Positions 6,432 to 28,900 of a DNA stretch of 64,000 nt are shown piece after piece. This DNA is from Streptomyces sp. B21-083. GTDB taxonomy: Bacteria > Actinomycetota > Actinomycetes > Streptomycetales > Streptomycetaceae. The stretch lies in contig NZ_JARUND010000002.1 in the NCBI RefSeq assembly GCF_036898825.1, forward strand, positions 2,790,001 to 2,854,000, written 5' to 3'. A program made the position numbers and the translations under genes. A model generated the notes under the pieces. The model made no database searches. It worked only from the letters and a program-made list of their open reading frames with translations, and was not told the origin of the DNA. Each line of letters opens with the position of its first letter. The first letter of the stretch is position 1.

Positions 6432-7661
6432 ATGCCAGGACAGTTGCTCGAACTGCACGTGGAGAACTTCCGCAGTCTGCGGGACGTGACCATCCCGTTG
6501 GGGCCCCTGACGGTCCTCGTCGGTGCGAACGGCGTCGGCAAGTCGAACGTCCTCAAGGTCTTCGATCTGCTCGCCGACATCATCCGCACCGACCTCGAAC
6601 CCGCCCTCGAAACGCGGGGCGGGTTCGACGAGGTCGCGTTCTGGGGCGGGCCTAAGCCGCCGACGACCCTCCGTATCCGGCTCAAGGCAACCTGGACCAC
6701 CCACTCCAGTCCCAACGCCCCCGACGAGTACGACTTGAAGGTCCGGCGCTACTCAGCCCCCAGCAGCAAGGACAACGGCCAATACCGCCTTACCCGCAGC
6801 GAGAGTTTCCAGTTCAAGCGGACCAGGGGGCGCGGACGTCGAATCAGCGTCTCGGGCGAGCGCGCCACAGTCGTCGACACCCGGCCGAGCACCGAACTTG
6901 AGGACAGCAGCGAGTTCGGCATCCAACGGCTCAGTAGCGGCCTCTCCACCCTGCCCAGGCTGGCGAGCACGGAGGGCGGTTCCGAAGTCGCGCTGGTGGC
7001 GAAGCAGCTCTCCTCACTGCGCGTCTTTGACGTGAATGTCGAAGCGGCACGTGCACCTGCCCGACTCGATCGCGGTTGGTTCCACCTCTCGCACAACGCT
7101 GACAATCTGGCCGCGTTTCTCGAATGGCTCAGCCAGGACATCACTGCCTGGGAACACCTCGTCGAAGATGCCAAGTCGGTCCTTCCTCAACTGGACAACA
7201 TCGAGTTCGTTCGTGTGGGAGGTGGAGCTGAGCAGGTGACGCTCCTGCTGCGCGAGCGCGGCCTGCGCCGTGTCACCCCTCTTGCCGACGCTTCCTACGG
7301 AACCGTCCGTCTCCTCGGTCTCCTGGCCCTCCTCTACGACCCGGGCCTACCGGCCCTCACTTGCATCGAGGAAATCGACCACGGGCTCCACCCCCAGGCG
7401 CTGCAACTGATCGTCAATCGATTGCGCGAAGCCAGCAACCGCACCCAGTTCATCATCGCCACCCACTCCCCCGCTCTCACGGACCGGCTCCGACCCGAGG
7501 AGATCGTGATCTGCGAACGGGACGACGAGGGCGCCTCCCTCATCCCCGCCATCACCACTACCGAGGTGAGCGCAATCGTGGAGGAGAGTGGAGACCTGCC
7601 GCTCGGCGAGTTGTGGTTCTCCGGCGTGCTCGGAGGCGACCTCACCGGGGATGAGCTGTGA
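6432..7661 (+). CDS. RecF/SMC-like AAA ATPase (AAA_21 type), defence-pair ATPase
   Basis: A 409-residue ABC/SMC-fold ATPase that starts with the typical VENFRSLRDVTIPL strand. Walker A GANGVGKS spans residues 31-38, Walker B with the catalytic pair CIEEID is near 311-315, and the D-loop/switch ATHSP lies near residue 350. The segment between them is a charged insertion as in overcoming-lysogenization (OLD), RloA, AbiLi and PARIS AriA ATPases. The next gene overlaps by GTGA and encodes a TOPRIM-like protein, the usual effector partner of such ATPases. The ATPase is expected to sense a phage trigger and control the effector; that is inference from the family. Confidence 0.88.
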   Translation: MPGQLLELHVENFRSLRDVTIPLGPLTVLVGANGVGKSNVLKVFDLLADIIRTDLEPALETRGGFDEVAFWGGPKPPTTLRIRLKATWTTHSSPNAPDEYDLKVRRYSAPSSKDNGQYRLTRSESFQFKRTRGRGRRISVSGERATVVDTRPSTELEDSSEFGIQRLSSGLSTLPRLASTEGGSEVALVAKQLSSLRVFDVNVEAARAPARLDRGWFHLSHNADNLAAFLEWLSQDITAWEHLVEDAKSVLPQLDNIEFVRVGGGAEQVTLLLRERGLRRVTPLADASYGTVRLLGLLALLYDPGLPALTCIEEIDHGLHPQALQLIVNRLREASNRTQFIIATHSPALTDRLRPEEIVICERDDEGASLIPAITTTEVSAIVEESGDLPLGELWFSGVLGGDLTGDEL

Positions 7662-8335
7662 CCGCCAGGAACGGTGGGCCGCAAGGTCGCGGTGTCATCG
7701 TCCTCGCCGGCGAGGACTCCAACGACTGCCGGATCGTCGCCGAGATCATCAAGCAGCACCACCCCGCCCTCGGCAACGCCCGGCTCGTCGAGATCAGCGA
7801 CAAGACCAGGCTCAAGACAGCCACCGGTCCCGAACTCGCCGCCCGCATCCGCACGATCATCGGCAAGGCGAAGGCCCGGGCGCTCCGGGCGAAGGGCCCT
7901 CTGGTCGGCCTGGTGATCCACGAGGACCTGGACGGCTACACGGGGGCCGAGTACACCCGTATCCGCGCGAACGTCGCAGGGGCTCTCTCCCGCGAAAGCC
8001 CCTGCAACTCAGCGCTGGCGCTTGCCGCTTGGGAGTCGGAAGCCTGGCTCTTACTCTTCCCGGACGCCTTCCCTGCCGTCCGGCCCAACTGGAAGGTTCC
8101 CGCACAGATCCGGGGCCGTGACACCGGAAACCTCAAGAGTCCGAAGGAAGAACTGAAGCGCAGGCTCGGTTCCCCAGCCTTCCGGGAGAGCGACGGGCCC
8201 AAGGTGGCTGAGCAGGCCCGGTCGTTAGGCCTACTGGCCTCGGGCCCGACCGGTACCAACCGCTCCTACACGGACTTCGTCCACGAACTCGGTCAGTGGT
8301 CCGCAGCCTCCGGCCCAAGTCCCAGTCGGAGGTGA
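7658..8335 (+). CDS. DUF4276/RloB-type TOPRIM-like effector
   Basis: A 225-residue protein, start GTG overlapping the ATPase stop by GTGA, so translation is coupled. It has the features of the DUF4276/RloB group: an N-terminal strand ending in AGEDSND with E19, a second acidic block HEDLDG (E89, D90, D92), and ESEAWLL, equivalent to the conserved E-x-W of these families. In TOPRIM folds the first Glu and the DxD pair bind metal for strand cleavage. With the ATPase it forms a two-gene module comparable in layout to AbiL, PARIS or RloAB. A decayed copy lies at 6050-6365, so the gene has been duplicated at this place. Confidence 0.82.
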   Translation: MTARNGGPQGRGVIVLAGEDSNDCRIVAEIIKQHHPALGNARLVEISDKTRLKTATGPELAARIRTIIGKAKARALRAKGPLVGLVIHEDLDGYTGAEYTRIRANVAGALSRESPCNSALALAAWESEAWLLLFPDAFPAVRPNWKVPAQIRGRDTGNLKSPKEELKRRLGSPAFRESDGPKVAEQARSLGLLASGPTGTNRSYTDFVHELGQWSAASGPSPSRR

Positions 8336-11132: not shown

Positions 11133-12224
11133 ATGTCCCGCCCCGCACCCGTCCCAGGCCCTCCGCCGGCGCCGCCCTTCGGCCCGCCCCGCACACCCTG
11201 GTGGCGAACCGGGTGGGCACGCGTCGGCTTCGTCCTGGCCGTGCCGGTGCTCGGTTTCCTCAACGCGTTCCTCGGCCTTCTCATGCTGGTGGTCGCGCTC
11301 TTCCTCCTGTGGTGGGGCAACGCCTGGCCGAAGCGGTGGAAGGCAACGGGGACCGTCGCGGCCGTATTCCTGTTCGGGGCGGTCCTGCCACCGGCGCCCC
11401 AGGCCAGGACGTCGGGCACTGTGGCGGAGGCGGACGCGAAGGCCCGGAACGCCGGAGGACTCGTCACCTCTCCGTCCCCGAGGGGCACGGCGGAGGACGG
11501 ACAAGCACCTGAGCCGACGACGGACCCCGAGATCCCGGACTACCGAGGCCTGCGGCTCGACGAAGCCACGAAGAGGGCACAGACGGACGGGTTCGCCGTC
11601 GGCGACCACGACGCGTCCGACCAAGGCGACGGCATCTGGATGCGCTCCAACTGGACCGTCTGCTTCCAGCAGGCCGACGCTTCGCCGGGCAGCACGAGGA
11701 CGATCGACTTCGGAGCGGTGCACACCGGGGCTCCCTGCCCCGCGCGGGACGGCGGCCCCATCCCCTGGCCGAGGATGCCGGAGGTGATCGGTGCGACGTG
11801 GGCGGCGGCTCAGAAGAAGCTCGCCGCTCTCGACGTCCCGTCCAATCGCATGTACGCGGACACGATCTACGGAAACGACGCCCTCCCCGAGGAGGGCGAA
11901 TACGACGAGTGGAAGGTGTGTGCGCACGATCCGGGCCGAGGGGAACGGATCCCCGACGGCACCTCTGTGAGGCTCTGGCTGTCCGCGCCGGAGAACGACT
12001 GCCCTGCCCCGGCAGGGGAGGACAACGGATCCGCCCAGCTACCCGATCGCGACGACGACGGGGACCCTGACTACCACGACCCGTTCCCCGGTGACGGGAA
12101 CCGCAACAGCACCTTCCCGGACGGCCTGACCGGAAGTTCGGGTGGCTCGGGTGGCTCAGGCGGATCGTCGAACGGCTCGTCCGGTGGCGGTGGTTGGGGC
12201 GGCTGCCGCTCCCGCTGGTGCTGA
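11133..12224 (+). CDS. Membrane protein with PASTA-like domains and Gly/Ser-Trp-Cys tail
   Basis: About 363 residues from the ATG at 11133 (11106 is possible). After a Pro-rich N-terminus there are two hydrophobic stretches around residues 27-70 (GFVLAVPVLGFLNAFLGLL, LVVALFLLWWG) and a third at about 75-90. The outer part contains two PASTA-like repeats: IPDYRGLRLDEATKRAQTDG and MPEVIGATWAAAQKKLAALD. PASTA domains bind peptidoglycan fragments or beta-lactams in bacterial kinases. The C-terminus is Gly/Ser-rich and ends WGGCRSRWC. A Ser/Thr kinase gene follows 116 bases downstream, so a signalling partnership is plausible. A remnant of the same tail is at 15931-16001. Confidence 0.7.
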   Translation: MSRPAPVPGPPPAPPFGPPRTPWWRTGWARVGFVLAVPVLGFLNAFLGLLMLVVALFLLWWGNAWPKRWKATGTVAAVFLFGAVLPPAPQARTSGTVAEADAKARNAGGLVTSPSPRGTAEDGQAPEPTTDPEIPDYRGLRLDEATKRAQTDGFAVGDHDASDQGDGIWMRSNWTVCFQQADASPGSTRTIDFGAVHTGAPCPARDGGPIPWPRMPEVIGATWAAAQKKLAALDVPSNRMYADTIYGNDALPEEGEYDEWKVCAHDPGRGERIPDGTSVRLWLSAPENDCPAPAGEDNGSAQLPDRDDDGDPDYHDPFPGDGNRNSTFPDGLTGSSGGSGGSGGSSNGSSGGGGWGGCRSRWC

Positions 12225-12340
12225 GCCGAAGGTACGGGCCCTGGACAGCACCGCGCGTCAGGCGGTCGGCGAAACCGCCCCCGGTCGCAACCGGGGAAGA
12301 AACACTGTGCCCTCCATCGCTGATGTGGTTATGTGCATTC

Positions 12341-13834
12341 ATGGAGGACACAGACACGATTCCGGTCGTTGACACCAGGTATCGGCTGGAACGGCGCCTG
12401 GGGACAGGCGGCCAGGGGGAGGCGTGGCTGGCATACGACGCGCGCCTGCGCCGCCAGGTAGTGCTCAAGAAGTGCAGATTCCCTGAGGGAGTATCAGCCG
12501 AGGAGCGCGAGGTTCTCATCGCGCGGGCCGAGCGTGAGGCCCGGGCGGCTGCAAGGCTCAATCATTCCGGCATCGTCACCGTGCACGATCAGTTCTCCGA
12601 CCGCAACGGCCTGCCCTGGATGGTGATGGAGTACGTGGACGGGCCGTCTCTTCGGGAAGTCCTTGGCGAGGGGCCTCTGCCTGTCGCGGAGGCGGCGCGC
12701 ATCGGCACACAGATCGCGGAGGCTCTTGCCGCCGCGCACACGGCCGAAGTAGTCCACCGCGACATCAAGCCGGCCAACATCCTCCTCGCGGACGGCCGGG
12801 TGGTGATCGCCGATTTCGGGATCGCCACCATGGCGGGCGAGATCACTCTCACGCCCACGGGAACGGTGATCGGGACGCCGCAGTACATGTCCCCGGAGCA
12901 GATACTCTGCAGGTCGACTTCGTCGGCTTCGGACATGTGGTCGCTCGGAGCGACGCTGTACCGCGCAGTGGAGGGACGTTCTCCGTTTTCCGGTGACTCC
13001 ACCCCACAACTGATCCTGGCCGTCAGCCGCGGTGTTCCGGAGCCCATGCGCTCCGCCGGCGCCCTGCAGACCCTGATCGGTCAGCTCATGCGGTTCGAAC
13101 CTGCTGAGCGCCCCGCAGCAGCCGTCGCGGCAGCCACGATGGGGGAGGTCGTCGCATGCCTCCCACCGGCCGGTCCAGGGCCCGCCGATATCGACAGCCT
13201 GCTCGAACAGGCAACCAAGAAGCGCGACGAAGGCGCCCTCGACCAGGCCGAGGACCACTACCGATCGGATCTCGACCTCGCCATAGAGCATCGCGCCAGA
13301 CGGAAGGAGGGCTGGGCCTGGGACGGCCTCGGCTCCTGTCGCTGGCGAAGTGGCGACCCCAAGATGGCACTGAAGTTCTTCACCCGGGCCGATCGTCTCG
13401 CCGACGAGACCGACGACACACACCTGAAGGCCTGGAGCCTGTACAACCTCGGCGTGTACCGGCGCTCACGCGGTGAACTGGCGGCGGGCAAGGACTACTT
13501 GCAGCGGTCGTTGGCGGTGTCGGAAGCCCATCGGTGCCCCGCAGCCGCAGGCTGGACCCACCACCAGTTGGCCGAGTTGGCACAGCACGAGGGGGACGCC
13601 CGTCAGGAGCAGGAGCACTACGCAGCAGCCCTCCGTGTCGGCCTGGCTTCCGACGACGACGGGCTGACGGGCTGGAGTCTGATTCACGTCGCCAGGTGCG
13701 CAGAGGAATCCGGCGATCTCCCCCCGGCAGGCGAGCACTATGCGCGCGCCTTGGAGATCGGCAACCGAATCCACGACAAGTGGATGATCCGGGAAGCCAA
13801 GGATGGACTCGCGCGCATCGCCGACGCCAACTGA
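12341..13834 (+). CDS. Hanks-type Ser/Thr protein kinase with C-terminal TPR repeats
   Basis: A 497-residue cytosolic kinase. The glycine loop (GTGGQGEAW) begins the domain, the ATP-anchoring Lys is K43, the catalytic loop HRDIKPAN has D141 and the DFG Asp is D158; all key residues are present. From about residue 285 on come five to six TPR-like repeats (LDQAEDHYRSDLDLAIEHR and similar) instead of the membrane anchor and PASTA domains of PknB. The ATG at 12341 was chosen because the upstream frame has no domain content. Linked kinase and TPR modules usually report on protein complexes; some are anti-phage kinases (Stk2-like), but nothing specific shows that here. Confidence 0.88.
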   Translation: MEDTDTIPVVDTRYRLERRLGTGGQGEAWLAYDARLRRQVVLKKCRFPEGVSAEEREVLIARAEREARAAARLNHSGIVTVHDQFSDRNGLPWMVMEYVDGPSLREVLGEGPLPVAEAARIGTQIAEALAAAHTAEVVHRDIKPANILLADGRVVIADFGIATMAGEITLTPTGTVIGTPQYMSPEQILCRSTSSASDMWSLGATLYRAVEGRSPFSGDSTPQLILAVSRGVPEPMRSAGALQTLIGQLMRFEPAERPAAAVAAATMGEVVACLPPAGPGPADIDSLLEQATKKRDEGALDQAEDHYRSDLDLAIEHRARRKEGWAWDGLGSCRWRSGDPKMALKFFTRADRLADETDDTHLKAWSLYNLGVYRRSRGELAAGKDYLQRSLAVSEAHRCPAAAGWTHHQLAELAQHEGDARQEQEHYAAALRVGLASDDDGLTGWSLIHVARCAEESGDLPPAGEHYARALEIGNRIHDKWMIREAKDGLARIADAN

Positions 13835-14105: not shown

Positions 14106-15875
14106 ATGCAGGACCCTTCGGACTCGATGGAGATCGCCGAGCCTGAGGAGAACGGCCGGAGCAATTCCGCCGACTCACCTGTTGTGGACGACCCGACACC
14201 CGACTCCGACATCGACTCGACGACGGTGTCGACGGTCCTGGTGGAGGTGCTTCCAGGGGTTGCTGTCGTCTGCGGTGAGGTTCCGGCGGAACTCAAGGCC
14301 GATTTGCTCGACTTCGGGATCGTGCCGGCTGCCGACCGCAAGCAGCTGTCCGCGGTCCTCGCCTCGATCGGGAACACGGCGACCGTGGCCGGCAACCTCG
14401 GAAACGCGTTCGCCAGTGTGCAGGGGCTCTACAGGCTCGGCGCCGGGACACAGGCCTGGCTGAATGCCGGCGCGACGCTCGCCGTGAAGGACGGCGCGAA
14501 CCTCGGAGCAGTGTTCTTCGGCGGAAAAATAGTCGGTCAGGCCCGCCTCCTCCCCGTGGCCGCGGTGAGCACGGCACAGACCGCGGCCTCGATCGGGCCG
14601 GCGCTGGCCATGGTCGGCCTTCAGATGCAGTTGAGCGAGGTCACGGGCCTTGTCAGGACGAACATCGCGCTGACCAGCCAGGTACTCGGAGCCATCCGTA
14701 ACGAGCAGTGGACCGAACTGACGGGGCTCGTCACCACCATCGATCGCGCGGTCGACCAGGCGCGGGAGGTCGAATCGGTCCCCACCTCCTTGTGGGACAA
14801 CGTCGCGGGTAGTGAGGCGTCGCTGCGTAAGCAGCTTGACCTGTACCGGCTGAACGTCCGTGGCCACGTCGGACAGATCGACGGGGCCGACGCGAGTCGC
14901 CGCCGTGAGTATCTCCAGACGAACGCCGAGGCAGTCGTCTTCGACGCCAACGCCCTCCTGTCATCCCTCAAGGCATGGACCGGGTATCAGGCGCTCCGCG
15001 CCGGGAGGGCAAGAGCCGCCGGTCGCGAAGACGCGCACGAGGCACGGCTCGTCGACGTCATCGCGCGCGACACCCGCGCGGAGTTCGACTCCGCGCTCGC
15101 CGAGACGGCGAGCCTCGTCGGCGCGCTGACGCGGGAGCTGCGGATCATCGCCGAGCTCCCCGGGCCCGACTCATGGCCGCTGCCGGGGAAACGGAAGGAC
15201 GTGAAGGCGGCCCGCGAAATCTCCGCCCGTCTTCTGGAGGCGATCGTGCCTCTTGCCGATGCCTTTCATCCACCGGCCCCTCCGCTCGAGGCTCCGAGCC
15301 TCGTCTGCGCACCCACATCGCTGGAACTCGAGCCGTACCTTCGCATCCTGCAATGGTTCCTCGAGGACGGTGAGACCGTACGTGTCCTCGGCTTCCCCGA
15401 GCAGCTCGATGCCCTCGATCCGATTTCCGCGATCGTCGGCGGAGCGAGGGAGATGTTGGCGGCAGCGAGGGACAAGGCCGCGGCCAAGACACTGGTCGCC
15501 GTCACGGATCGCCGCGTCATCACGGCCAAGACGAACGCGTTCCTCGAGCAAGGCTCGATTCGTCAAGTCATCCCGATCGACCAAGTGCGATACGTCCGGG
15601 CAGCGACCACGCAGGACAAGAGCGCGCGGTCGGCGATCGACCTCATCACGCGTGACGAGAACATCCGGTGGCACTTCCACTCTGACATCGGCAACGCTCA
15701 AGTGGACGCGCTCGCCGCCGTGCTCGCCGAGTCGATGGCGATCCCCGACGTCGAACGCGATGAGCTTCAGCGGCGGCGCCACGTCCCCATCGAAGCGGGC
15801 GAGAAGGACGAGAGCACCGACATGCGGGCTACGGAACCGACCGAGTCCGAAGCCACGAGCGGCGATGCCGAGTAG
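14106..15875 (+). CDS. Unknown protein with hydrophobic core and C-terminal PH-like domain
   Basis: A 589-residue protein. The ATG at 14106 is firm: GGGGGAGG stands 7 bases upstream. The first 45 residues are acidic and low-complexity. Residues about 135-185 are rich in Ala/Gly and hydrophobic (GAVFFGGKIVGQARLLPVAA) and could be a membrane-associated helical hairpin. A helical region follows. Near residues 455-500 the pattern LVAVTDRRVITAK then SIRQVIPIDQVRYV resembles bacterial PH-like (YokE/bPH) domains, which bind membranes or proteins. I do not recognise the family as a whole. Its place between a kinase and a DUF262 operon inside an accessory region makes a defence role possible but unproved. 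Confidence 0.7.
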   Translation: MQDPSDSMEIAEPEENGRSNSADSPVVDDPTPDSDIDSTTVSTVLVEVLPGVAVVCGEVPAELKADLLDFGIVPAADRKQLSAVLASIGNTATVAGNLGNAFASVQGLYRLGAGTQAWLNAGATLAVKDGANLGAVFFGGKIVGQARLLPVAAVSTAQTAASIGPALAMVGLQMQLSEVTGLVRTNIALTSQVLGAIRNEQWTELTGLVTTIDRAVDQAREVESVPTSLWDNVAGSEASLRKQLDLYRLNVRGHVGQIDGADASRRREYLQTNAEAVVFDANALLSSLKAWTGYQALRAGRARAAGREDAHEARLVDVIARDTRAEFDSALAETASLVGALTRELRIIAELPGPDSWPLPGKRKDVKAAREISARLLEAIVPLADAFHPPAPPLEAPSLVCAPTSLELEPYLRILQWFLEDGETVRVLGFPEQLDALDPISAIVGGAREMLAAARDKAAAKTLVAVTDRRVITAKTNAFLEQGSIRQVIPIDQVRYVRAATTQDKSARSAIDLITRDENIRWHFHSDIGNAQVDALAAVLAESMAIPDVERDELQRRRHVPIEAGEKDESTDMRATEPTESEATSGDAE

Positions 15876-16001: not shown

Positions 16002-16110
16002 CGTACGGCCGCGCGCAGCCTCCAGGTCCGAGGGTGCCTCCGGTAAGCGATCGGCTACTGTACGGACACGTTCGAGCTGTGTTGGGCACGCGTCTACGGA
16101 GGGGCACATC

Positions 16111-17337
16111 TTGGTCGGCAGCGCTCCGGTGCCGGAGCCGGAACAGTCGTCGGACACCACCTCCGCCGATCACGCGGTGCCCCCGCCGGACGAAGTAGCG
16201 GTCGAGTTCACCGATACCGGACGCAGTACCGGCATCGAGGTCGAGGACATCGGCGAAGCCGGCCGGATGCCGTTCGACCCTGAACTCATCGAGGTCCATC
16301 CTCGCAACCCCACCGTCGACCTCGTCGTCCAGCGGCTGAAGCGCGGACTGATCGACCTCCAGCCCGACTTCCAGCGAAAGTCCGGCATCTGGAACGAGAG
16401 GGCCCAGAGCCGACTGATCGAGTCGCTGCTGCTACGCATCGCGCTGCCCACGTTGTACGTAGCGGAGGAGAACGACGAGTCCTGGTCCGTGGTCGACGGG
16501 GTGCAGCGCCTCACCACAATCGTCCGGTTCGTCAAACCCGAGGTCGCCGGCCTGGATCCACTGCGGCTGGGAGACCTGGAGTACCTGACTCAGTACGACG
16601 GCAGCCGCTTCGAGGATCTGCCGGGGCGGATGCAAACCCGAATCCTGGAAACGGAACTCTCCGTCCTGCTCATCCGGCGGGGCACACCGGAGGAGGCCAG
16701 GTTCAACATCTTCGCGCGGATCAACACGGGCGGCCAACCGCTTACGCGGCAGGAACTGCGGCACGCTCTCATCCCGGGGACTGCGCGTGTGTTCCTGGCC
16801 GAGCTGGCCGAGAGCGGCTTCTTTCTTCAGGCTACGGGGTACAGCGTCAATCCCGCCCGTATGGCGGAGCGCGAACTCTGCCTGCGTTTCCTCGCGTTCG
16901 CCATGACTCCGCCGGAACGATACGTCACGCAGGACTTCGACGGTTTCCTCCGCGGGACCATGCACGACATCAATGCCCTTCCGGACGAGGCGCTGACCAA
17001 CCTGGCAAGGACCTTCTACCGTGCGATGCGGGCCTGTCGGCTGATCTTCGGGGACCACGCCTTCCGCAAGCAGTTCAGCGGGACCACCAGGCGCTACCCA
17101 ATCAACAAAGCTCTGTTTGAGGTGCAGGCGGTGACTGTAGCTCGGTGCACTGCCGATGAGCTCCGCACCCTGTGCGATCGCGCCCCGATTCTCGAAAAGA
17201 AGTTTCAGAAGCTGATGGATGACATCACCTTCTACGACTCCATCTCGTCCGGCACCAGTGACGCCGACAAGGTCAACTACCGCTTCCAGTCAATGAAGGA
17301 CCTGTTCCGCGAGGTGTTGGAGAACACGGATGCTTGA
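16111..17337 (+). CDS. DUF262 (GmrSD N-terminal-like) protein
   Basis: A 408-residue DUF262 protein. The TTG start is supported by GGAGGGG 6 bases upstream. It carries QPDFQRKSGIW (Q88, R89) and VVDGVQRLTTI (residues 128-138), corresponding to the family QR...W and DGQQRLTTL motifs; here the first Gln of DGQQR is Val. The later NTGGQPLTRQELRHA is also typical. DUF262 domains have a ParB/sulfiredoxin-like fold and supply the NTP-driven part of GmrSD, BrxU and SspE defence nucleases; an HNH DUF1524 domain is absent here. The protein overlaps the ATPase gene by 8 bases, so the two are translated together. Confidence 0.88.
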   Translation: MVGSAPVPEPEQSSDTTSADHAVPPPDEVAVEFTDTGRSTGIEVEDIGEAGRMPFDPELIEVHPRNPTVDLVVQRLKRGLIDLQPDFQRKSGIWNERAQSRLIESLLLRIALPTLYVAEENDESWSVVDGVQRLTTIVRFVKPEVAGLDPLRLGDLEYLTQYDGSRFEDLPGRMQTRILETELSVLLIRRGTPEEARFNIFARINTGGQPLTRQELRHALIPGTARVFLAELAESGFFLQATGYSVNPARMAERELCLRFLAFAMTPPERYVTQDFDGFLRGTMHDINALPDEALTNLARTFYRAMRACRLIFGDHAFRKQFSGTTRRYPINKALFEVQAVTVARCTADELRTLCDRAPILEKKFQKLMDDITFYDSISSGTSDADKVNYRFQSMKDLFREVLENTDA

Positions 17338-18469
17338 GTCGCTCACTCTTACCAACTTCAAGGCATTCGCCAGCCAAGAGCTGCGCCTGGCCCCCTTCAC
17401 CCTGCTGACCGGACTCAATTCGTCCGGCAAAAGCTCCGTACTGCAGTCTCTTGCCCTATTGCGGCAGTCGTACGAGTCGGGCGACCTCGCCCTCATCGGC
17501 GACCGGGATGCCGGGCTGCTCCTCAACGACGAACTGGTGCAACTCGGCACCGGTCAAGACGTACGGCACGAGTCGTACGACGACACGGGGCCGCACATCT
17601 CGCTCGCCGTGCAGGGCGATGGAGCGGCGGCACAGTGGACCGCGCTCTATGAGCGGGAGGCCGACCACCTCAAGCTGCTCCAGGACGACGACGGGGAGAA
17701 CACGTACGCCTCCGTCGAACCGGCGTCGTTGCTGCCGACTTTGTTCGGGGCAGGCTTCCAGTATCTGAAGGCCGACCGCGTTTCTCCGCAGGTCAGTTAT
17801 CCCCGCTCACACCACGCCGTCACCACGCGTGGTTTTCTGGGCCCGCACGGGGAACACACTGTCAACTACCTGCGAATTCACCAGGATGAACCAGTTGTGT
17901 CAGGCTCGCTCATTCTGCCGAACGTCTCCTCCACCAGCCTCCTTGGACAGACTCAGGCATGGATGCAGAAACTTTGCCCGGGAGTGAACCTGAAAGCGGA
18001 GGACATCGCCCGCACGGACACGGTTCGGCTCAGCTACAGCTTCGGCTCCGGTGCGTTCGCCTCCAACAGCTACCGACCCACCAACGTCGGGTTCGGACTC
18101 ACGTACGCACTGCCGATCGTCGTAGCTTGCCTGTCGGCCAAGCCAGGCACGCTGATCCTGCTGGAGAACCCTGAGGCCCACTTGCATCCGCAGGGCCAGA
18201 CGTGGATGGCGTACCTGGCGAGCGCGGCCGCTGCGAGCGGGGCGCAGATCGTCATGGAGACGCACAGTGACCACGTGCTCAACGGGCTGCGGATCTCCGT
18301 CAAGAACCAGCAAATCAGGGCCACCGACACCTCAGTGCACTTCTTCCGCCGCAAGGAACAGACCAGCGAGGTCCTCACCCCTGTCATGGGCGTGGACGGC
18401 ATGCTCTCCGACTGGCCTCGAGGCTTCTTCGACGAGTGGGAGAACTCGCTCGACCAACTATTGGACTGA
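17330..18469 (+). CDS. SMC/RecF-like ATPase with DUF3696-type C-terminus
   Basis: A 379-residue ATPase starting with LTNFKAFASQELRLAP. Walker A GLNSSGKS spans residues 28-35 with K34; Walker B LLENPEAHLHP has E279 and is followed by METHSDHVLNGLR, the pattern of DUF3696-containing ATPases. The central domain is the usual variable insertion. It lies between a DUF262 gene, which it overlaps, and a gene of unknown function 68 bases downstream. ATPases of this group accompany nucleases in phage-defence operons. The partner-effector here should be one of its two neighbours. Confidence 0.87.
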   Translation: MLESLTLTNFKAFASQELRLAPFTLLTGLNSSGKSSVLQSLALLRQSYESGDLALIGDRDAGLLLNDELVQLGTGQDVRHESYDDTGPHISLAVQGDGAAAQWTALYEREADHLKLLQDDDGENTYASVEPASLLPTLFGAGFQYLKADRVSPQVSYPRSHHAVTTRGFLGPHGEHTVNYLRIHQDEPVVSGSLILPNVSSTSLLGQTQAWMQKLCPGVNLKAEDIARTDTVRLSYSFGSGAFASNSYRPTNVGFGLTYALPIVVACLSAKPGTLILLENPEAHLHPQGQTWMAYLASAAAASGAQIVMETHSDHVLNGLRISVKNQQIRATDTSVHFFRRKEQTSEVLTPVMGVDGMLSDWPRGFFDEWENSLDQLLD

Positions 18470-18536
18470 CTGGGGACGCACTTCTCATTTCTTTCTCCAC
18501 CATTCCGTACGTGGCCATCACCTTGGGGGGCGACGC

Positions 18537-19457
18537 GTGCCATTGCTGCTGTTTCTCAACGAAAGATCGTGTGCGTCAAGCGCCTCGCCGACCGAAGTCG
18601 GCGAGGCCATGGCAGAGTTCGTGGCGGTCTTGCGCGCCGTCCGCAAATGGCGAGATATCTCGCTGGTGACGAAGCATCCCCTTCCGGAAGCCGAACTGGC
18701 GAGGGGCTACTACTACGGTCAGTGGGCCGCAGACAACCGCAATCGCAACCAGCGGCTGTTCATCAAGGCCCTGCGCAACACGGCTCCGTTCAAGGCGGTT
18801 CGCGCACCGTCCGCGGAGGCGGGGGACGACATCGAGTACCACTGCTCCGGTCAACCGGTCGAGGGAGTCGGCTGGGCTCACCTGATGGACGGCCTCGCGG
18901 TGAGCCTGCCGCTCTCCGCCACGTGGTCAGGCCCATGGCTGAACCTGAACATCCGTCGGCTTGTCGAGACCGACACAGGCGACCTCGCCATGGAGGAGGT
19001 CATGGAACAGGTGCGGCACAGCGCCCGCCGCGCCGACCTTTCCCTGCACGAGAAATGGGGCTGCGCGGCCGGTCTCGACGCGGTCGACTCGGCCTCACAA
19101 CTCTGGGAGCAATGGGACGACTTCTTTCCTCGGCTCCAGGTTCTTCCCGAGGTTCGAGATCAACTCACGGACTTGGAATTACGGTGGTTCATCCAGGTGC
19201 GTGGGCTTCTCGCGCGGCTACAGGCGTCCGCGGCACTGTGGGACGGGAGCGGCGTACCCGACTGGCAGGGCGCCAAGGTCACGCCCGAACACGCGCAGCG
19301 CAAGCAACTCTGTCTGTTCCGGGATCTGGACGGGGAGAAGCGCTTCTTCGACTGGCACGGACGCTTCACACCCGGTGCGGGGCGCCTGCACTTCCGGCTC
19401 GTAGGCGAGGACAAAGCACTGCGCATTGCCTACATCGGGCCGAAGATCGGGAAGTAG
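18537..19457 (+). CDS. Third gene of the DUF262/DUF3696 operon, unknown function
   Basis: A 306-residue protein starting at GTG 18537 after a GGGGGG stretch. It has no signal peptide and no motif I can name with certainty. The N-terminus LLLFLNERSCA followed by a helical region with WRDISLVTKHPLPE resembles a family repeatedly seen after DUF3696 ATPases. The C-terminal half contains RDLDGEKRFFDWHGRFTPGAGRLHF and ends in LRIAYIGPKI, which could be a compact beta domain. It is the obvious candidate effector or sensor of the operon; the absence of a recognisable catalytic motif is part of what makes the locus interesting. Confidence 0.72.
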   Translation: MPLLLFLNERSCASSASPTEVGEAMAEFVAVLRAVRKWRDISLVTKHPLPEAELARGYYYGQWAADNRNRNQRLFIKALRNTAPFKAVRAPSAEAGDDIEYHCSGQPVEGVGWAHLMDGLAVSLPLSATWSGPWLNLNIRRLVETDTGDLAMEEVMEQVRHSARRADLSLHEKWGCAAGLDAVDSASQLWEQWDDFFPRLQVLPEVRDQLTDLELRWFIQVRGLLARLQASAALWDGSGVPDWQGAKVTPEHAQRKQLCLFRDLDGEKRFFDWHGRFTPGAGRLHFRLVGEDKALRIAYIGPKIGK

Positions 19458-19662: not shown

Positions 19663-20166
19663 GTGAACAACAAGCCCACCACGCCCGTCGGAACCACAGA
19701 GCACGTTCCGTTGTCCACTGCCCGGCAAGAATTCACGATGCGTTTCAGTTCCACCCCCCGCGGCGCCCGCCTCGCTCGCCGACTCGTCTCTGGCCGACTC
19801 GACGAGTGGGGTTATCCGTACACGTCCCCCACCAACGAGACGCTGGCACTCCTGACTGCTGAGCTGGCTGCCAACGCCGTACGCCACGGCCGCGTGCCCG
19901 GACGGGACTTCGAGGTCCGGCTCTTCGCCGGCGAAGGGACGACTTTTCGGGTCGAGGTCTCCGACACTCGCGCGGAACGCGTACCGGAGCTGTCCCTCAA
20001 CGAAGCGCCCAGCGAGGCGGAGTCCGGCCGAGGCCTGATGCTGGTCGCGGCGCTGGCCGACGAATGGGGGACCGCACCACGCCACGGCGCTCCCGGCAAA
20101 ACAGTCTGGGCCACGCTGCAATACCCTCTCGCCGGCCATTCACCCACACGCGAGGACCCGCGATGA
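19663..20166 (+). CDS. HATPase_c_2 (anti-sigma-factor-like) ATP-binding protein
   Basis: A 167-residue single-domain ATP-binding protein of the RsbW/SpoIIAB-like streptomycete group. The N-box is ELAANAVRHG, the G1 box VSDTRAE and the G2 box SGRGLMLVAALAD. Such proteins phosphorylate or bind partner proteins, often regulating sigma factors, but many copies in Streptomyces are orphans. The start is GTG at 19663; ATG at 19738 would remove a non-conserved leader. The next gene begins 18 bases downstream, so both may form one operon. Confidence 0.85.
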   Translation: MNNKPTTPVGTTEHVPLSTARQEFTMRFSSTPRGARLARRLVSGRLDEWGYPYTSPTNETLALLTAELAANAVRHGRVPGRDFEVRLFAGEGTTFRVEVSDTRAERVPELSLNEAPSEAESGRGLMLVAALADEWGTAPRHGAPGKTVWATLQYPLAGHSPTREDPR

Positions 20167-20184: not shown

Positions 20185-21645
20185 ATGGTTTACGTCGTGG
20201 CGCTCAGTGAAGACCAACTCGACCGAATAGATATGGAGTTACGACTGAAGCAGGTTTTTACGAAAACCGTCGCCGCCGCCTCGTTGCCACGCGATCCTCG
20301 ACCTCAGATCACTCTGCTGGTCCGACGGCCGTCCGCAGCCGACCAGGCGTCCCCACTGGTCTGGCTGGGAGTTGTACGACAGCCACGCGGAGAGAAGGTG
20401 GCGGTGGTCGACTCCCGAGTGACAGTGGACCTGTTGCGGGAATGTCCGGTTCCGGTGTCGATGCACTCCGTCGGGGAGCAACTGCCGCTCTCTATACGGG
20501 ATGCGCTTTCCGCGGCTTCGAGAAGAGAAGTCACCATCCTGGATGACACGGTCTCCGAAGCTCTTCTCACGGCTCTCTCCCAGCAACACGAGAGACTGCG
20601 CCTACTGCTCGAATTCCTCGGCGAAGCGGCCACGCCGGAACGTCTCGATCCGCTTGGTCGGCCCGAGGACGCGTCATGGCAGGAGCAGCTCGAAGCCGCC
20701 CGGCTGGCTCTGGCCACCGGCGGAATTCCGCCGGCGCGGCTCGCCGCCTGGCGACGCCCAGTTGGCCGTCACGAACCAGTCCTGGCCGGCTTGATCGCAG
20801 AACCCTACGAGCCATCGCTGATCGACCACGACATGCACCACTTCTTCGACGGAGACGATGTCTTCCAGTCCATGGGGCCCCCGTACGAGGGGAACTCCCT
20901 GGGCTCCTCGTTCCGATGCGACATCCGCGTCTTCGAGCACCTCGGCCGCCGTATCGAGATCGCGAATGTGAACGCGACCGACGTCGAAACCCGCCTCGGC
21001 ACAGACATGATCTATTACCACGAGGCGACGCAAAGCTTCGTGCTGGTGCAGTACAAGCGCCTGCCGCAAGAGGCAAAAGAACGATGGATCCGTGTCGACA
21101 AACGACTGATGAGTCAACTGGACCGGCTGGAACGGGTGGCCGCCCTCAGCCGCCCAGCGGGTCTGCCGCACGAATGGCGCCTCGGCCCCGACCCGTGCTT
21201 CGTGAAACTCGCCTACTGGCCTCTGACGGAAACCATCGATCCAGGCCCCGCGCCGGGTATGTACCTGCCCGTGCCGTACGTACGGCTACTGCTGAACGAC
21301 GAAGCGACACGTGGTCCCAATGGTGGGCGACGGCTCGGATATCCACAGGTCGACCGTTATCTGACCAACACCGAGTTCACCGCGCTCATCAAGAACGGAC
21401 TGGTCGGCACCGTCGGCACGACGATCGAACAGCTCGCGGCACTCGGAGCGCAACGGGCCGAGGAGGACAAGATGTCCGTCGTCCTCGCCGTCGAGCGGGC
21501 CACCGACCCATTGCGCGAGACGGTGAAGGAGCGGCACAAGCGCAACCATTCTCAGGGCTACGACAAAACGCTCGCCAACCGCCTGCGCAGGCAGCGCCGG
21601 ACCACTCCGCCCATTCCCGGCCAGCAGACATTCCCCGAGTTCTGA
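20185..21645 (+). CDS. Unknown protein with PD-(D/E)xK-like nuclease pattern
   Basis: A 486-residue protein without an assignable family. The middle shows the sequence ETRLGTDMIYY followed 14 residues later by FVLVQYKRL: D274 and Q289-Y-K291 fit the D...(D/E/Q)xK arrangement of restriction-endonuclease-like folds, with predicted strands at both places. The flanking helices (LRETVKERHKRNHSQGYDKT) are basic and could bind nucleic acid. The N-terminal 180 residues form an alpha/beta domain of unknown type. It follows the HATPase gene by 18 bases. The nuclease assignment is my reading of the pattern, not an established family match. Confidence 0.62.
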   Translation: MVYVVALSEDQLDRIDMELRLKQVFTKTVAAASLPRDPRPQITLLVRRPSAADQASPLVWLGVVRQPRGEKVAVVDSRVTVDLLRECPVPVSMHSVGEQLPLSIRDALSAASRREVTILDDTVSEALLTALSQQHERLRLLLEFLGEAATPERLDPLGRPEDASWQEQLEAARLALATGGIPPARLAAWRRPVGRHEPVLAGLIAEPYEPSLIDHDMHHFFDGDDVFQSMGPPYEGNSLGSSFRCDIRVFEHLGRRIEIANVNATDVETRLGTDMIYYHEATQSFVLVQYKRLPQEAKERWIRVDKRLMSQLDRLERVAALSRPAGLPHEWRLGPDPCFVKLAYWPLTETIDPGPAPGMYLPVPYVRLLLNDEATRGPNGGRRLGYPQVDRYLTNTEFTALIKNGLVGTVGTTIEQLAALGAQRAEEDKMSVVLAVERATDPLRETVKERHKRNHSQGYDKTLANRLRRQRRTTPPIPGQQTFPEF

Positions 21646-21683: not shown

Positions 21684-22721
21684 TCAGCCCTCGATGCTCC
21701 GCACCACGAACGTCATGTGCTGGACGTTGCCCACCCAGTTCCACGTCGAGTGGTTGCCGGTGCTGACGGCGCCCTCGGCCCGGTCGCGCAACCACCTCTC
21801 CCCCGCCCCCGCGTCCACGCCCCGGAAGTCCGCGAGGCCGGTGAGGCAGCGCGCGGCCTGCCGGTTGGCGTCGTCGTACTGCCTGCCGTGCGGCACCTTG
21901 GACAGGTGGTAGGAGCGGGCGGTGGTGTAACGGAGGATGCCCCACGGCGGGCCCCCGTCGCGCGAGGGCGGGGGCTGGGTGACGTAGAGGGCGGGATGGA
22001 TCCCGTAGTCGCCGTAGCGCAGTCGGGGCAGGTACGGGCGTTCATGCCGGATCTCGTGCCAGGTCTCCCAGTCCGTGCGCGGGGCCTCGTACGGAACCCC
22101 CTCCCGGAAGTCGTCGGGCGGTTCGGGGAAGCCGCCGGCCATGACGGTCACCGTGTGCCAGGAAGTGAGCGGGATCAGGGTGTCCAGGGCGCGCACAGCC
22201 TCCTTGGCGGCGTCGGGGCGGTCGGGCAGCGCGGTGGCGAGGTCGAGGAACAGGTCGGCGGGGTGGCCTGTGGGCATCCGGTCGAGCAACGCGGCGACGT
22301 CCGAGGCCGTGCGGTCGTTCCAGTCGCCGGGGAGCCGCACACGGATGCCGAGTCCGTCCTCTCGCCGACGGGCCGCGGCGAGTGCGAGTGCCTGTTGGGC
22401 GCCGGGGCGGCCGGGTCCGGTGACCGGCCGCAGGTTGCGGTGGTCCCACCACCCGGGGGTAAGGACGTCGGCCAGTGCCGCCGCTTCGTCCTCGTCGGCG
22501 AAGGGCGCGTCCAGCCACCCGGAGCCGCGGCGCTGTGCCGTGGAGATGTCACCGGCCTCCTTGGTCAGACGTTCGGCCAGTGGTTTCGGCAGCATGCCGG
22601 GGCGGGGCGGCAGCGTCCACAGCGGAGCGACCTGACGCAGTATGTCCGGCGCCAGCGCGCGGTAAGCGGCTGCCGCGTGCGGCCGGGTCGGCAGGACGGG
22701 AACGTACAGCGGTACGGACAT
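21684..22721 (-). CDS. Phage T4 beta-family protein
   Basis: About 345 residues from the ATG at 21719-22721 side (start 22721), preceded by GAGGGGG. The opening VPLYVPVLPTRPHAAAAYRAL and the ending NVQHMTFVVRSIEG are the start and end patterns of the T4 beta protein family (Beta_protein). The molecular function is unknown. Members occur widely in bacterial defence islands near helicases and nucleases. The gene is divergent from the giant helicase gene with 245 bases between the starts, so the two promoters are shared in that gap. Confidence 0.82.
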   Translation of the reverse strand: MSVPLYVPVLPTRPHAAAAYRALAPDILRQVAPLWTLPPRPGMLPKPLAERLTKEAGDISTAQRRGSGWLDAPFADEDEAAALADVLTPGWWDHRNLRPVTGPGRPGAQQALALAAARRREDGLGIRVRLPGDWNDRTASDVAALLDRMPTGHPADLFLDLATALPDRPDAAKEAVRALDTLIPLTSWHTVTVMAGGFPEPPDDFREGVPYEAPRTDWETWHEIRHERPYLPRLRYGDYGIHPALYVTQPPPSRDGGPPWGILRYTTARSYHLSKVPHGRQYDDANRQAARCLTGLADFRGVDAGAGERWLRDRAEGAVSTGNHSTWNWVGNVQHMTFVVRSIEG

Positions 22722-22966
22722 GGCGTTCCCCCTCGGCGCTGCCCGTGCTCGGTTCTTCCTTCGCTCTCGTGCGCTTCTCTCGTTCGCCTTCAGGGTGAAA
22801 CCAGTGAAGAAAGCCCGAAAGGGCGCCAACCAGCCATGGGCGGAAAGGGAACCTGTACCCGCCCCGTCACACACTGTCCGACCTGCCCTATACGGTTGAT
22901 CCGCAACACACGGGGCGCCCACTGCCGCGCGAGCGCCTCGGGATCAGCAGATGTAAGGGGAGCGTC
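22722..22966. promoter_or_regulatory. Divergent promoter region of beta-protein and giant helicase genes
   Basis: Two starts face away from each other over 245 bases. The helicase ribosome-binding site is GGGGAG just before GTG 22967. I could not assign -10/-35 elements or an operator palindrome. Confidence 0.5.
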
Positions 22967-25900
22967 GTGAAACCCACTCTGGCCGCCGCGCAGCTGCGGG
23001 GCAGTCTGACGCAGTACCTCACGACGACCTACGCGCTGGCCGACGACGACACCCGGAGGGCCCTGGAGCGGTTCCTGGGGGACCCCGAGTCGGGGATTTT
23101 CCGGGGGCCGTACCTGCGGATCAGGACACCGTTCCACAAGGCTGACGACGGGTGGGAGCGGCATCTGGAGTGGCGGCCCGGGTTCACGCCGTGGCGGCAC
23201 CAGGCCAAAGCGTGGCAGCGGCTCAGCACGCTGGGCGGCAGGGACGCCGAGCCGACGCTCGTGACGACCGGCACGGGCTCCGGCAAGACGGAGTCGTTCC
23301 TGGTGCCGGTGCTGGACCACTGTCGGCGGCAGAAGGCTCTGGGTCGGCGCGGTGTGAAGGCCGTACTGCTGTATCCGATGAACGCGCTCGCCACCGATCA
23401 GGCGGGCCGCATCAGCGACTACCTGACCGCGCCCGACCTCGCCCAGGTGACCGCGGGTCTGTACATCGGCGATCGGCCGGACACCGACTTCCGGCGGGTC
23501 ATGACACGGCGTGAGGAGATGCGCGTCTCCCCGCCGGACGTACTGATCACCAACTACAAGATGCTGGACCTGCTGCTGCAGCGCGGTGAGGACCGGGCCC
23601 TGTGGGAGGGGGCGGACGTCGCGTACGTGGTGCTGGACGAGTTCCACACCTACGACGGCGCTCAGGGCACCGACGTGGCCATGCTGCTGCGCCGGCTGGC
23701 TACGGCGGTCGGCGCGACACGGCCGGACCGGCCGCTGGGGCGGATCTGCCCCGTGGCGACCTCCGCGACACTCGGGGCGGGGCGGGCGGGCGCGTCAGCC
23801 GGGGGCATCCTGGACGTGGCGGCGCAGGTGTTCGGCATGCCGTTCACGGCGGACGCGGTGATCGGCGAGGAGCGGATGACCGCCGAGGAGTTCACCGGCG
23901 AGGTCGACTACGCGCTTCCTGAACCGCCCACTCCGCAGGAGATCATCGCGGCGTCGGGTGGCATCGGCGTGGAGGCGAAGCCGGATCTGTTGGACCTGGA
24001 CGGGCTCGCCGCACAACTGCTGGGTCGGCAGGGCCTCGACGCGTTCCGTATCGGCCGTCTGCTGAAACGGCACGACTTCACCCAGGGCATCCTCGCGCTA
24101 CTCGACGGCGAGCCGTTGGACGAGTGGGGTCTGCGGGACCGGCTCGCGCGTTTCGGCTACGCCTGGGGACGCACCGCCCGGGAGAATCCACAGCTGGTGC
24201 TGCAAGCCCTGGCCCGTTTCGTGGCCCTGCTGTCCGCCGCCCGGGACCCGGACTCCGACGAACGACGTCCGCGTCCCCTGCTGCACGTCGAAGCGCATCT
24301 CTGGGTGCGGCCCGTGACACGCGTGCTGCGTGGGGTCGGCCGGACACCGGAGTTCCGCTGGTACGAGGACGACCGCACGCAGGCCCGGCGCGCCGCCCTG
24401 GCCGCGGCTCCCCCCTCCGACGAGGAGGACGGTCCCGCCGCGGGCAATGGGTCCTCGGGCAGGGCGAACCGGCCGCAGCCCCTGGCGGGCACGGATACGG
24501 CGGTGCGGCCCGCGCAGGCGCATCTGCCCGCCGTGTACTGCCGCGCGTGTGGGCGCTCCGGCTGGGCCGCGCTGTCCCCGGAGTCCGATCCGCAGCAGCT
24601 CGTCATGGCGCAGGACCGGATCTGGCGGGCCGGCGTCGGCCGTGACAAGCGCCGCATCCGCTACTTCATCTCCGCGACCGACCCGGAGCGGCGCCAGGCA
24701 CTCGACGCGCTGGCCGGGCGACTGCCCGCGGGCAGCGGGGTGGATCCGCTCTCCGTGGTGGTACTCGACGGGGCGCAGGGCACCTATCGGCTGCCGACAG
24801 CGGGAGACGACGGGGACCTGGTGGACGTCTGGTTCGCGCTCGCGCTGCTCGACAAGAAGACCGCCGACAAGGCGGCCAGGGACGACCGCTGTCCGGCGTG
24901 CAACACCGACAACAGCATCCGGTTCCTCGGTACGGCGCAGGCGGCGCTGGCCTCGGCCACCGTCACCCAGCTCTTCACCGGCGGGGACATCGCGCTGGTT
25001 CCGGAGGAACGCAAGACACTGCTGTTCAACGACTCCACGCAGGACGCCGCGCACCGCGCCGGATACGTCGCCAACGCCTCGTACAAGTTCTCGCTGAGGT
25101 CGCTGCTCGCGCACAACCTCGACGAGTCCGGGGCGGCGACCGCGCTCAACGACCTGATCGGCAACGTCCTCGACTCGGTGGACGATCCCGAGGCGCTGGC
25201 CGCTGTGGTCCCGCCGGATCTGCACGACGAGCCGGGCATCGACCGGGTGTTGTCGGGCCGCGGCACCGGAGACGCCCGTACCTGGCGGCTGATCGGTGAA
25301 CGGCTGGCCTTCGCCACGGTGATGGAGTTCGGGCTGCGGTCACGGCTCGGCCGCACCCTGGAGCTCACGCGGACAGCCGCCGCCGAGGTCGTCGTCGAGA
25401 ACCCCGATCGGGTCACCGACCTTGCCCGTGATCTGCACCTCGCACTGCCGGGGCAGCTGGTGATGACGGGCGGGCTCCCGACACCCGAGCGGTATCTCGC
25501 CTATGTGCGGGGCATTCTGGAACGGCTGCGGTTGCGGGGCGCGGTCCGGCACCGGTGGCTGGAGCAGTGGATGCGGGAGGCCGGCGCCGACCGGTTCCTC
25601 ATCAGCGGACGGCGGCCCGACGGCATGCCCGCCTTCCCCGAGGGGGTGGCCCCGCCGCGGTTCCTGCTGGACGGGCAGAAGGACAGGACCGAGTTCGACG
25701 TGATCACCGGCCGGCAGGCCTGGTTCCAGGACTGGACCCGCCGCTGCCTCGGGCTGGACGCCGCCGGCGCCACCGAATACCTCCGCCGGCTTCTGCCCGC
25801 CCTAGCTGACGAGCACGTACTCAGCGTGCGAACGGCGAAGGACCGCACCACGCGCGTCTACGGTCTCCAGCCCGGCCACATCCAGGTACGGCTGCTGGAC

Positions 25901-28900
25901 GACTCGATCGTCAACAAGGCGTTCGTGGCGTGCGAGGACTGCGGCTGGCAGCAGGTCGTGCCACCGGAGCGACGCACCCGCTGGTACGGCCATCCGTGCC
26001 CGCGCTACCGGTGCAAGGGATACCTGACGCCACCGCAACCGGGTGTACACCGCTCGGCGCCGCCCGACCCGCACGGCGGCAGAGGCGTCACCGGCGCGGG
26101 CTTCGGCGTGCTCCAGGAGCGCGACTACACGAACGACTACTACCGGCGGCTGTACCTGACCGGCGGCACCTTCCGTGTCGTGACGGCCGAGCACACCGGC
26201 ATGCTGACCCGTGCACAGCGGGAGCGGGTCGAACGGACCTTCCGCGCCGGCGCGCACTACACCGACCCGAACGTGCTGTCCTGCACCCCCACGCTGGAAC
26301 TCGGCATCGACATCGGTGACCTGTCGGCCGTGCTGATCGGCTCGCTGCCGAAGGGCCCCGCGAATTATGTGCAGCAGGCGGGACGCGCGGGACGCAAGAC
26401 GGGCAACGCGCTGGTCGTCGCCTTCGGCGGACGCCGTGCCCGGGACCTGTACTACCTGGACCAGCCGCGGGAGATGATCGCGGGCGACATCGTGCCCCCT
26501 GGCTGCTACCTGTCGGCGGTGGAGATCCTGCGCCGCCAGTACACCGCGTGGCTGCTGGATCTCGCCGCGCGCGGCGAGCTCTCGACCTCGGACGGCGAAC
26601 GCTTGCAGCCGGTGCCCCGGCTCGCCTCCGCACTCTTCGGTACGACGGGATGGTGCCAGGACCTCGCGGACGCGGCACAGACACACGGGGCGACGCTCGT
26701 CGAGCGGTTCCTGGCCCTGTTTCCCGGGAGCGACACGCCCATGTTGACCGCGGACGGCCTCGCCACACCGGACGGCGACGACGCCGGAGTGTCCGCGCAC
26801 GCCGCCGACGAACTCCGGAAGTACGCGAGCGGCGGCATCGTACGAACTCTCCAGGAGGCGGAGGAGGACTGGACGGGGCGGCAGGAGGAACTGCGGCGCA
26901 GGATCGCAGCGATCGACGAGGCCGTCGACTCCCTGGCCCGTACCGACGAGGTCCAGGACCGGGAACGGCGGGAACTGCTCGCCGAGCGCCGCAGCACCGG
27001 GGACCTGCTGCGGGAGTTGAGCCGGACCAGCGCGCACGGCACACTCGTCGAACTGGGGCTCCTGCCGAACTACAGCCTGGCCGACACCACGACCCAGCTG
27101 GAGGCCACCCTGTACTGGTCCGAGGTTCACTCGGACACCGAGGACCCGTCCGAGACAGGAGCTCCGGGGAAAGCCAGGCCACCTGCCGGTACGGAACGCA
27201 TTTACCGCAGTGAGACCCGCGACTACGAACGCTCCCGCAAAACGGCCCTCACCGAACTGGCCCCTGGCAACAGCTTCTACGTCAACGGCTACAAGCATGT
27301 GGTGCGCGCCCTCGACATCGGCAGTCCGGAGCGCCGCGCCTGGTCCGTATGGCGGCTCTGTCCCTCCTGCGGATACGTCCGCACGCGGGACGCGCAGACC
27401 GACACCTCGCCCTGCCCGCGCTGCGACGGTCGGGAGATCGCCGACGCGGGCTGCGTCCAGTACGTGCTTCAGCCGCGCCGGGTCGTCGCCCGCGACAAGC
27501 GCGACGATGCCCGGGTGCGGGACGACCGCGACGAGCGGGCCCGCCGACAGTACGCGGTGCTCACCACCGTGGACATCGACCCCGACCATCTCGCCATCGA
27601 CTCCTGGCGGCACGACACGGCGACCTTCGGCGTGGACTTCTCCCGCAGAGCCGTCATCAGAACGCTGAATCTGGGACTCGACCGGCAGGACGGCAGCTCC
27701 ACGGTGCCGCTGGCCGGCGAGGACGTGCGGATCAACCCGTTCTACGTCTGCACGACCTGCGGTGGCGCGACGGCGGAGGGCAGGCCGGTCGTCGACCAGC
27801 CGCAGCACGCACTGACCGACTCGGGGGCCGCCGCCACCAAGGCGAGTTTGCACCATCTGCTGTGGTGCCCCCGGCGGCGTACTCAGGGCTCTGCACGCGG
27901 GCAGGGACAACGGGCGGGCCAGGACGTGCCCCTGCTGCTGGCCCACGAACTAACCACGGAAGCCGTACGAATCCTGCTGCCCGCCTCGGTGACAAGGGCC
28001 CGGGAACGGCTCGCGTCGTTCACCGCGGCGCTGTTCGCCGGTATCGCGGCGCGCTACGGCGGCGACCCCGACCACATCGACATCGCCGCGGCCTCGATGC
28101 CTGACAGTCCGGACCAGCTCGGCTCCGACTTCCCGCGGCGCTTCCTCGTCGTCTACGACCGGTTGCCCGGCGGCACCGGCTATCTGCACCGGCTGGCATC
28201 CGCGGACGGTTTCCGCGAGGTGCTCCTCAAGGCGCGCGAGGTCATCGACAACTGTTCATGCCAGCAGAAAGAGCTGGACGGCTGTCACCAGTGCCTGCTG
28301 CGCAGGGTGCCCCCGTCGGACTACGACCGGGTCTCCCGCCGGGAAGTGCAGTCGATGCTGGACGAGCTCCTCGGAGCCCACGGCGAACGCTGGCAGACTT
28401 CGTCGGTCTCCACGACCCGTCAGATCCCGCTGGAGCGACAGGCGGAGAGCGACCTGGAGGTCATGTTCGTCGACACCCTGGAGGAGTGGGCCAAGCAGCC
28501 CGACTCCCGGGCGACGGCGGACACGTACACCACACCGGCGGGCACCCGTGCGCTGGATCTGCGACTGACCACCGGCGAGGGAACCACCGTGAGCTGGCGT
28601 GTCTCGCAGCAGCGCGTCCTCGACGGCACCCGGCCCGACGTACTCTTCGAGCGGCTCGACGCGCCGGGCCCACGGCTCGCCGTCTACCTGGACGGATACC
28701 GCTACCACGCGAGCACCGAGCACAACCGTCTCGCGGACGACGCGACGAAACGCGCCCGGCTCCGGGCGGACGGGCTGCGGGTGTTCCAACTGACCTACCC
28801 CGATATCAAGGAGTGGCAGAACCGGGTCCGGGACACGGGGTACGCGGGAGTCGCTCCGGCAGACCCCGTGTGGCTGCCTTACGACCAGGAAGCACAGAAG

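Follow-up and report, generated by a model that had tools for sequence, protein, structure and literature searches.

The three-gene operon at 16111..19457 of the DNA analysed here, a 64,000-nucleotide stretch of Streptomyces sp. B21-083 (contig NZ_JARUND010000002.1, positions 2,790,001 to 2,854,000; hereafter the window), is, by sequence comparison, a complete chromosomal Menshen system, NsnA-NsnB-NsnC, and hence a known system and not a new one. Menshen, with its components NsnA, NsnB and NsnC, was reportedly described by Millman et al. 2022. The C-terminus of the third protein, NsnC, is predicted to fold like a RelE/YoeB-type toxin, and a set of polar residues in it is almost invariant.

Identity and conservation of the operon

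The assignment to Menshen is attributed to the best PADLOC matches of the three proteins, which extended over nearly the whole models. NsnA matched PDLC03877 with 431.8 bits (E 6.6e-130, profile positions 13-384 of 385), NsnB matched PDLC03878 with 389.5 bits (1-343 of 345), and NsnC matched PDLC03879 with 317.1 bits (1-304 of 305, protein residues 1-305). In a Pfam search of all three proteins at E up to 0.1, GmrSD_N (DUF262, 78.7 bits) was the sole match of NsnA, which agreed with the original prediction of a DUF262 protein without an HNH part. NsnB matched AAA_15, AAA_21, and DUF3696 (50.2 bits) as well as weaker AAA/SMC models, as foreseen for an SMC-like ATPase of the DUF3696 type, while NsnC, described beforehand as a 306-residue protein without an assignable domain, matched nothing in Pfam or NCBIfam at this threshold. 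The HNH nuclease domain DUF1524 was not matched in NsnA, NsnB or NsnC, nor TOPRIM in NsnB (Pfam). A type IV restriction enzyme of the GmrSD/BrxU/SspE kind was rejected on the basis of the zero DUF1524 matches in the trio. The statement that DUF262 is always joined to a nuclease domain was wrong, since DUF262 proteins without DUF1524 occur in PD-T4-2, Menshen, and Dazbog (Mariano and Blower, PMC10952713).

At the sequence level, the nucleotide-binding motifs of NsnA and NsnB are intact. R89, D129, G130, Q132, R133, F201, and N205 of NsnA were invariant in the 32 aligned sequences (alignment A2), and F87 and Q88 were conserved in 31 of them. NsnB carried the Walker A, Walker B (LENPEAHLHP), and ETHSDH segments, with G28, G33, K34, and S35 of Walker A, E279-E282, and E310, H312, S313, D314, and H315 invariant in 32/32 (alignment A3). 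A sequence search of the PDB gave no significant match for NsnA.

The sequence bore out the TTG start of nsnA behind a strong ribosome-binding site and the 8-base overlap of nsnA and nsnB (Table 1). The third gene follows nsnB as predicted, with a gap of 67 bases instead of 68, and no RNA structure was found around this gap (z +1.45). The GC fractions at codon positions 1/2/3 were 0.65/0.43/0.83 for nsnA, 0.64/0.44/0.81 for nsnB, and 0.69/0.46/0.79 for nsnC, which is the pattern expected of genuine high-GC genes.

NsnC as an orphan without relatives was rejected, since the search returned 106 proteins with E values of 0.001 or lower, headed by the window protein itself; the closest named relatives came from Streptomyces. 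A contig scan with the NsnC alignment gave 59 loci, and a scan with the single NsnC sequence confirmed none. The trio was taken as complete when each gene covered more than 80% of its profile, the profiles being seeded with the window proteins and constructed from those loci that had been retrieved up to that point. All three genes, complete and arranged A-B-C on a single strand, were present in 45/59 loci, in support of the predicted three-gene operon and of the conservation of nsnC beside nsnA and nsnB. By predicted starts, nsnA and nsnB overlapped in 39 of these 45 (median -4 bases), and nsnC started a median of 31 bases after nsnB. With 45/59 trios complete and 39/45 overlapping, the arrangement is far from chance. 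Among the 14 incomplete loci, five held only a piece of NsnC, two were without B, two were without A (one at a contig end), and the remaining five had one or more genes that were partial, split or under the 80% cover limit. The loci with only the C-terminal piece (L048, L049, L055, L061, and L064; four of them named Streptomyces records), in which nsnA and nsnB were undetected, appear to be decayed systems or stand-alone remnants.

A search for a further conserved gene (tblastn at E 1e-5 in the 59 loci as fetched) gave no relatives of the proteins at 14109-15872 and 20185-21645. The HATPase protein at 19663 had relatives in 16/59 and the kinase at 12194 in 6/59, which probably reflects the breadth of the two families, and neither was counted as a part of the system.

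NsnC was present in 16 of the 199 genomes of the host's genus (host counted), and NsnA, at a threshold of E 1e-30, in 10/396 genomes of its phylum, a figure that includes weaker DUF262 relatives. At a threshold of E 1e-10, the host genome contained a single NsnB. The patchy distribution is as expected for defence genes. NsnA relatives also occurred in 85 plasmid records, and all three of those opened showed DUF262, DUF3696, and hypothetical proteins in that order. On plasmid pBspH4 of Acinetobacter sp. NEB 394 (L155, 1480-5498), this trio was located directly after a BrnT/BrnA toxin-antitoxin pair.

A locus on a viral contig (L100), whose proteins scored 408.7 (NsnA), 403.7 (NsnB), and 298.7 bits (NsnC) in PADLOC and whose identity to the window proteins was 37% for NsnB and 24% for NsnC, matched chromosomal DNA of 17 out of 5426 complete E. 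coli genomes, with an identity of at least 99% in 16. One of the 17 is the laboratory strain E. coli W, in whose chromosome the Menshen operon (L153, 6013-9216; 1511973-1515176 of NC_017635.1) is flanked by genes of prophage type, including kilR, ydaT, and holins. With the trio present in unchanged order, this strain provides a ready model for Menshen.

Fold and conserved residues of NsnC

Structure prediction of the third protein, a possible effector according to the original prediction, gave a RelE-type toxin fold at the C-terminus, which supports NsnC as the likely effector, and the predicted structure of a divergent NsnC showed this fold likewise. Apart from two S. pneumoniae toxin-antitoxin entries, the best structure matches of the divergent NsnC were HigB1, followed by ribosome-bound RelE, and ParE toxins were among the structure matches listed for both NsnC and divergent NsnC. 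No PIN domain was found among the best 50 structure matches of NsnC, which excludes nothing. Searching the PDB by sequence gave no significant match for NsnC or divergent NsnC.

The conserved polar residues of the toxin-fold domain are listed in Table 1; N8 and E9 in the N-terminal domain were also invariant in 58/58 (alignment A1). In the divergent PDLC03897 kind of NsnC, R260 aligned with R283 and K278 with K303, and both were invariant there. Residues R61, R81, and Y87 of RelE and E46, R65, H83, and Y84 of YoeB are essential (PMC12620021). From the sequence patterns and the hhalign alignment with the divergent kind, we infer that R283 corresponds to R61/R65 and K/H303 to R81/H83. The alignment of the window NsnC family with the divergent kind was collinear over 253 columns and weak (probability 10.7%, E 0.0029), and the C-terminal set alone gave a probability of 31% (E 5e-4). 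Of the divergent NsnC proteins, 20/22 matched TIGR02683 at E up to 1, the best at 3e-6.

Table 1. Features of the Menshen operon, in window coordinates (A1, NsnC alignment; A5, divergent NsnC set)
Feature	Position	Strand	Basis or remark
nsnA ribosome-binding site GGAGGGG	16098..16104	+	sequence read
nsnA, DUF262 (ParB-like NTPase) protein, 408 aa, TTG start	16111..17337	+	PADLOC, Pfam
DGVQR, NsnA nucleotide-pocket motif, residues 129-133	16495..16509	+	D129, G130, Q132, R133 identical in 32/32 NsnA
nsnB, ABC/SMC-type ATPase, C-terminal DUF3696, 379 aa, ATG start	17330..18469	+	PADLOC, Pfam
nsnC, candidate effector, 306 aa, GTG start	18537..19457	+	PADLOC
NsnC N-terminal alpha/beta domain, residues 1-195	18537..19121	+	fold assignment weak
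NsnC C-terminal RelE/YoeB/ParE-fold domain, residues 196-306	19122..19454	+	predicted structure
NsnC E251	19287..19289	+	57/58 in A1, 16/16 in A5
NsnC H274	19356..19358	+	58/58 in A1, 16/16 in A5
NsnC R283, proposed counterpart of RelE R61 / YoeB R65	19383..19385	+	58/58 in A1, 16/16 in A5
NsnC K303, proposed counterpart of RelE R81 / YoeB H83	19443..19445	+	K/H in 58/58 of A1, 16/16 of A5

Proposed mechanism and alternative explanations

We consider it likely that Menshen is an abortive-infection system in which the NsnAB sensor pair substitutes for the antitoxin and NsnC is a RelE-type mRNase. NsnA, the ParB-like NTPase, and NsnB, an ABC ATPase that would probably form a dimer or a ring, would together serve as sensor and switch. 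In the uninfected cell, NsnC would be kept inactive via its N-terminal domain, and infection would cause an NTP-dependent change by which NsnC is freed or activated. Active NsnC would then cleave mRNA, probably within the A site of the ribosome, in the manner of RelE, YoeB, and HigB, which are ribosome-dependent mRNases (PMC11980606), and this cleavage would stop translation and with it the multiplication of the phage. Menshen no longer protects when its DUF262 gene is mutated or deleted (PMC10952713).

Several observations weigh against an mRNase activity of NsnC. The window NsnC matched no RelE/ParE family model, and its C-terminal profile gave no significant alignment with E. coli RelE (hhalign, probability 0.1%). 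The TIGR02683 and Gp49 matches of divergent NsnC were weak, the first member reaching 15.3 bits, where the curated cut-off is 62.85, and having no Pfam match. The polar set was not uniform over NsnC, a counterpart of H274 being absent in the PDLC03897 kind, and the window protein stops three residues past K303 without a counterpart of RelE Y87 / YoeB Y84. In addition, the Menshen partner was called a predicted OLD nuclease (PMC10952713), which would place the nuclease elsewhere. A common fold is also no proof of RNase activity, because ParE toxins share this fold and inhibit gyrase.

A first alternative is that the C-terminal domain of NsnC is a ParE-like poison of DNA gyrase, or acts on tRNA, rRNA or some other target instead of ribosome-bound mRNA. 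Such a role would fit the occurrence of ParE toxins among the structure matches and the missing tyrosine, and the family includes the rRNA cutter RelE1 (PMC12620021). ParE, however, is said to be without the catalytic residues of the BECR RNases (PMC11980606), whereas E251, H274, R283, and K/H303 are retained in NsnC, and the structures placed highest for the divergent NsnC, apart from the two S. pneumoniae entries, were HigB1 and ribosome-bound RelE. We regard this alternative as unlikely.

Menshen could also be a modification-dependent restriction system, in which NsnA reads modified phage DNA, OLD-type NsnB or NsnA cuts it, and NsnC is a DNA-binding or structural helper. PtuX of the ptuXYZ operon, which is compared with Menshen below, was termed a putative nuclease (PMC11980606), and NsnB resembled a solved OLD-family protein over a short stretch (6p74_A, E 4.9e-06, residues 267-317). 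This explanation appears quite improbable to us, given that neither NsnA nor NsnB had a TOPRIM or DUF1524 match in Pfam, that NsnB was only 365-398 aa long across the 45 full trios, and that the toxin fold of NsnC carries polar residues that are strongly conserved. The original proposal of a new, unnamed defence system, made for a trio whose third protein had no Pfam domain and for which no named system with exactly these parts was known, was rejected as next to impossible, because the trio matched the PADLOC Menshen models of NsnA, NsnB, and NsnC and the same architecture is already published as ptuXYZ (PMC11980606).

Menshen is placed under mechanism unknown in a 2026 review (PMC12926258). 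The fold evidence on NsnC makes the mechanism directly testable, with NsnC expected to be a conditional RelE-type RNase.

Neighbouring genes and comparison with known systems

Further genes were noticed in the window. A type IIG restriction enzyme-methyltransferase (18-3755, + strand, 789 bits) probably begins upstream of the window start, since its best stretch ran from model position 407 on. HEC-01A (6432-7661, 644 bits) and HEC-01B (7658-8335, 288 bits), both on the + strand with a 4-base overlap, formed a candidate defence pair, and a Ser/Thr protein kinase with TPR repeats (12194-13834, +) matched the PD-T4-6 and mad6 kinase models. The 486-aa protein at 20185-21645 (+) had no match in PADLOC, Pfam or NCBIfam; its segment FVLVQYKR resembles a PD-(D/E)XK nuclease motif. 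A Beta_protein gene (21684-22922, - strand; PF14350, 182.9 bits) had a weak likeness to PD-Lambda-2_C (50.2 bits). Downstream, a 2343-aa DruE-like helicase (22967-29998, +; DEAD, Helicase_C, and MZB; PADLOC DruE3, 290.9 bits) was followed with a 4-base overlap by a 750-aa UvrD-type helicase (29995-32247, +), and a search of the openly licensed literature found no system name for this pair.

The C-terminal fold of NsnC is common to the toxins of RelE/HigB/YoeB toxin-antitoxin modules, but NsnC adds an N-terminal domain of 195 residues, and two NTPase partners replace the small antitoxin gene. Cami1, which according to its PDB title is cA4-bound on the 70S ribosome, provided structure matches 44 and 50 of divergent NsnC. 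PARIS, Gabija, and Septu possess an ATPase related to NsnB, which scored 79.2 bits with AriA, 48.2 with GajA, and 45.6 and 42 with the PtuA models (among the best 25 of 119 matches), the PtuA scores being far under that of the NsnB model. Neither AriB, GajB nor PtuB was present in the full match lists of NsnA (6 matches) and NsnC (7 matches, all to NsnC models). As for PD-T4-2, NsnA matched PD-T4-2_A with 113.8 bits versus 431.8 bits with the NsnA model.

The likeness to Menshen comprised all three proteins, each with a near full-length best model match, and the DUF262 protein without DUF1524. Nothing distinguishing was found, apart from the ATPase being without a TOPRIM match here versus a predicted OLD nuclease in PMC10952713. 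In the ptuXYZ operon, known from 17 examples, the DUF262 protein has no HNH part, the second product is a PtuA-like ATPase, and the third, PtuZ, combines a PIN-like N-terminal domain devoid of catalytic residues with a YoeB/HigB-like C-terminal domain (Gerdes 2025, PMC11980606). It resembles the operon of the window in the DUF262 protein without HNH, the PtuA-like P-loop ATPase in second place, and the C-terminal BECR fold of the third protein, all in the same order; the N-terminus of PtuZ was called PIN-like by Gerdes, whereas a PIN-like domain could not be confirmed in NsnC. By description, on which this comparison is based, the two operons appear to be the same thing. The text of PMC11980606 never names Menshen, though it cites Millman et al. 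2022. The chances seem evenly balanced that Menshen and ptuXYZ are one system, in which every NsnC, however divergent, is a RelE-fold RNase that stops translation and is silenced by an NTP-driven NsnA-NsnB pair. If true, Menshen would be a toxin-antitoxin module whose antitoxin became a two-protein infection sensor. The RelE assignment of NsnC and the link to ptuXYZ may already be contained in Li et al. 2025, on Menshen domain polymorphism; the link itself would avoid parallel work under two names.

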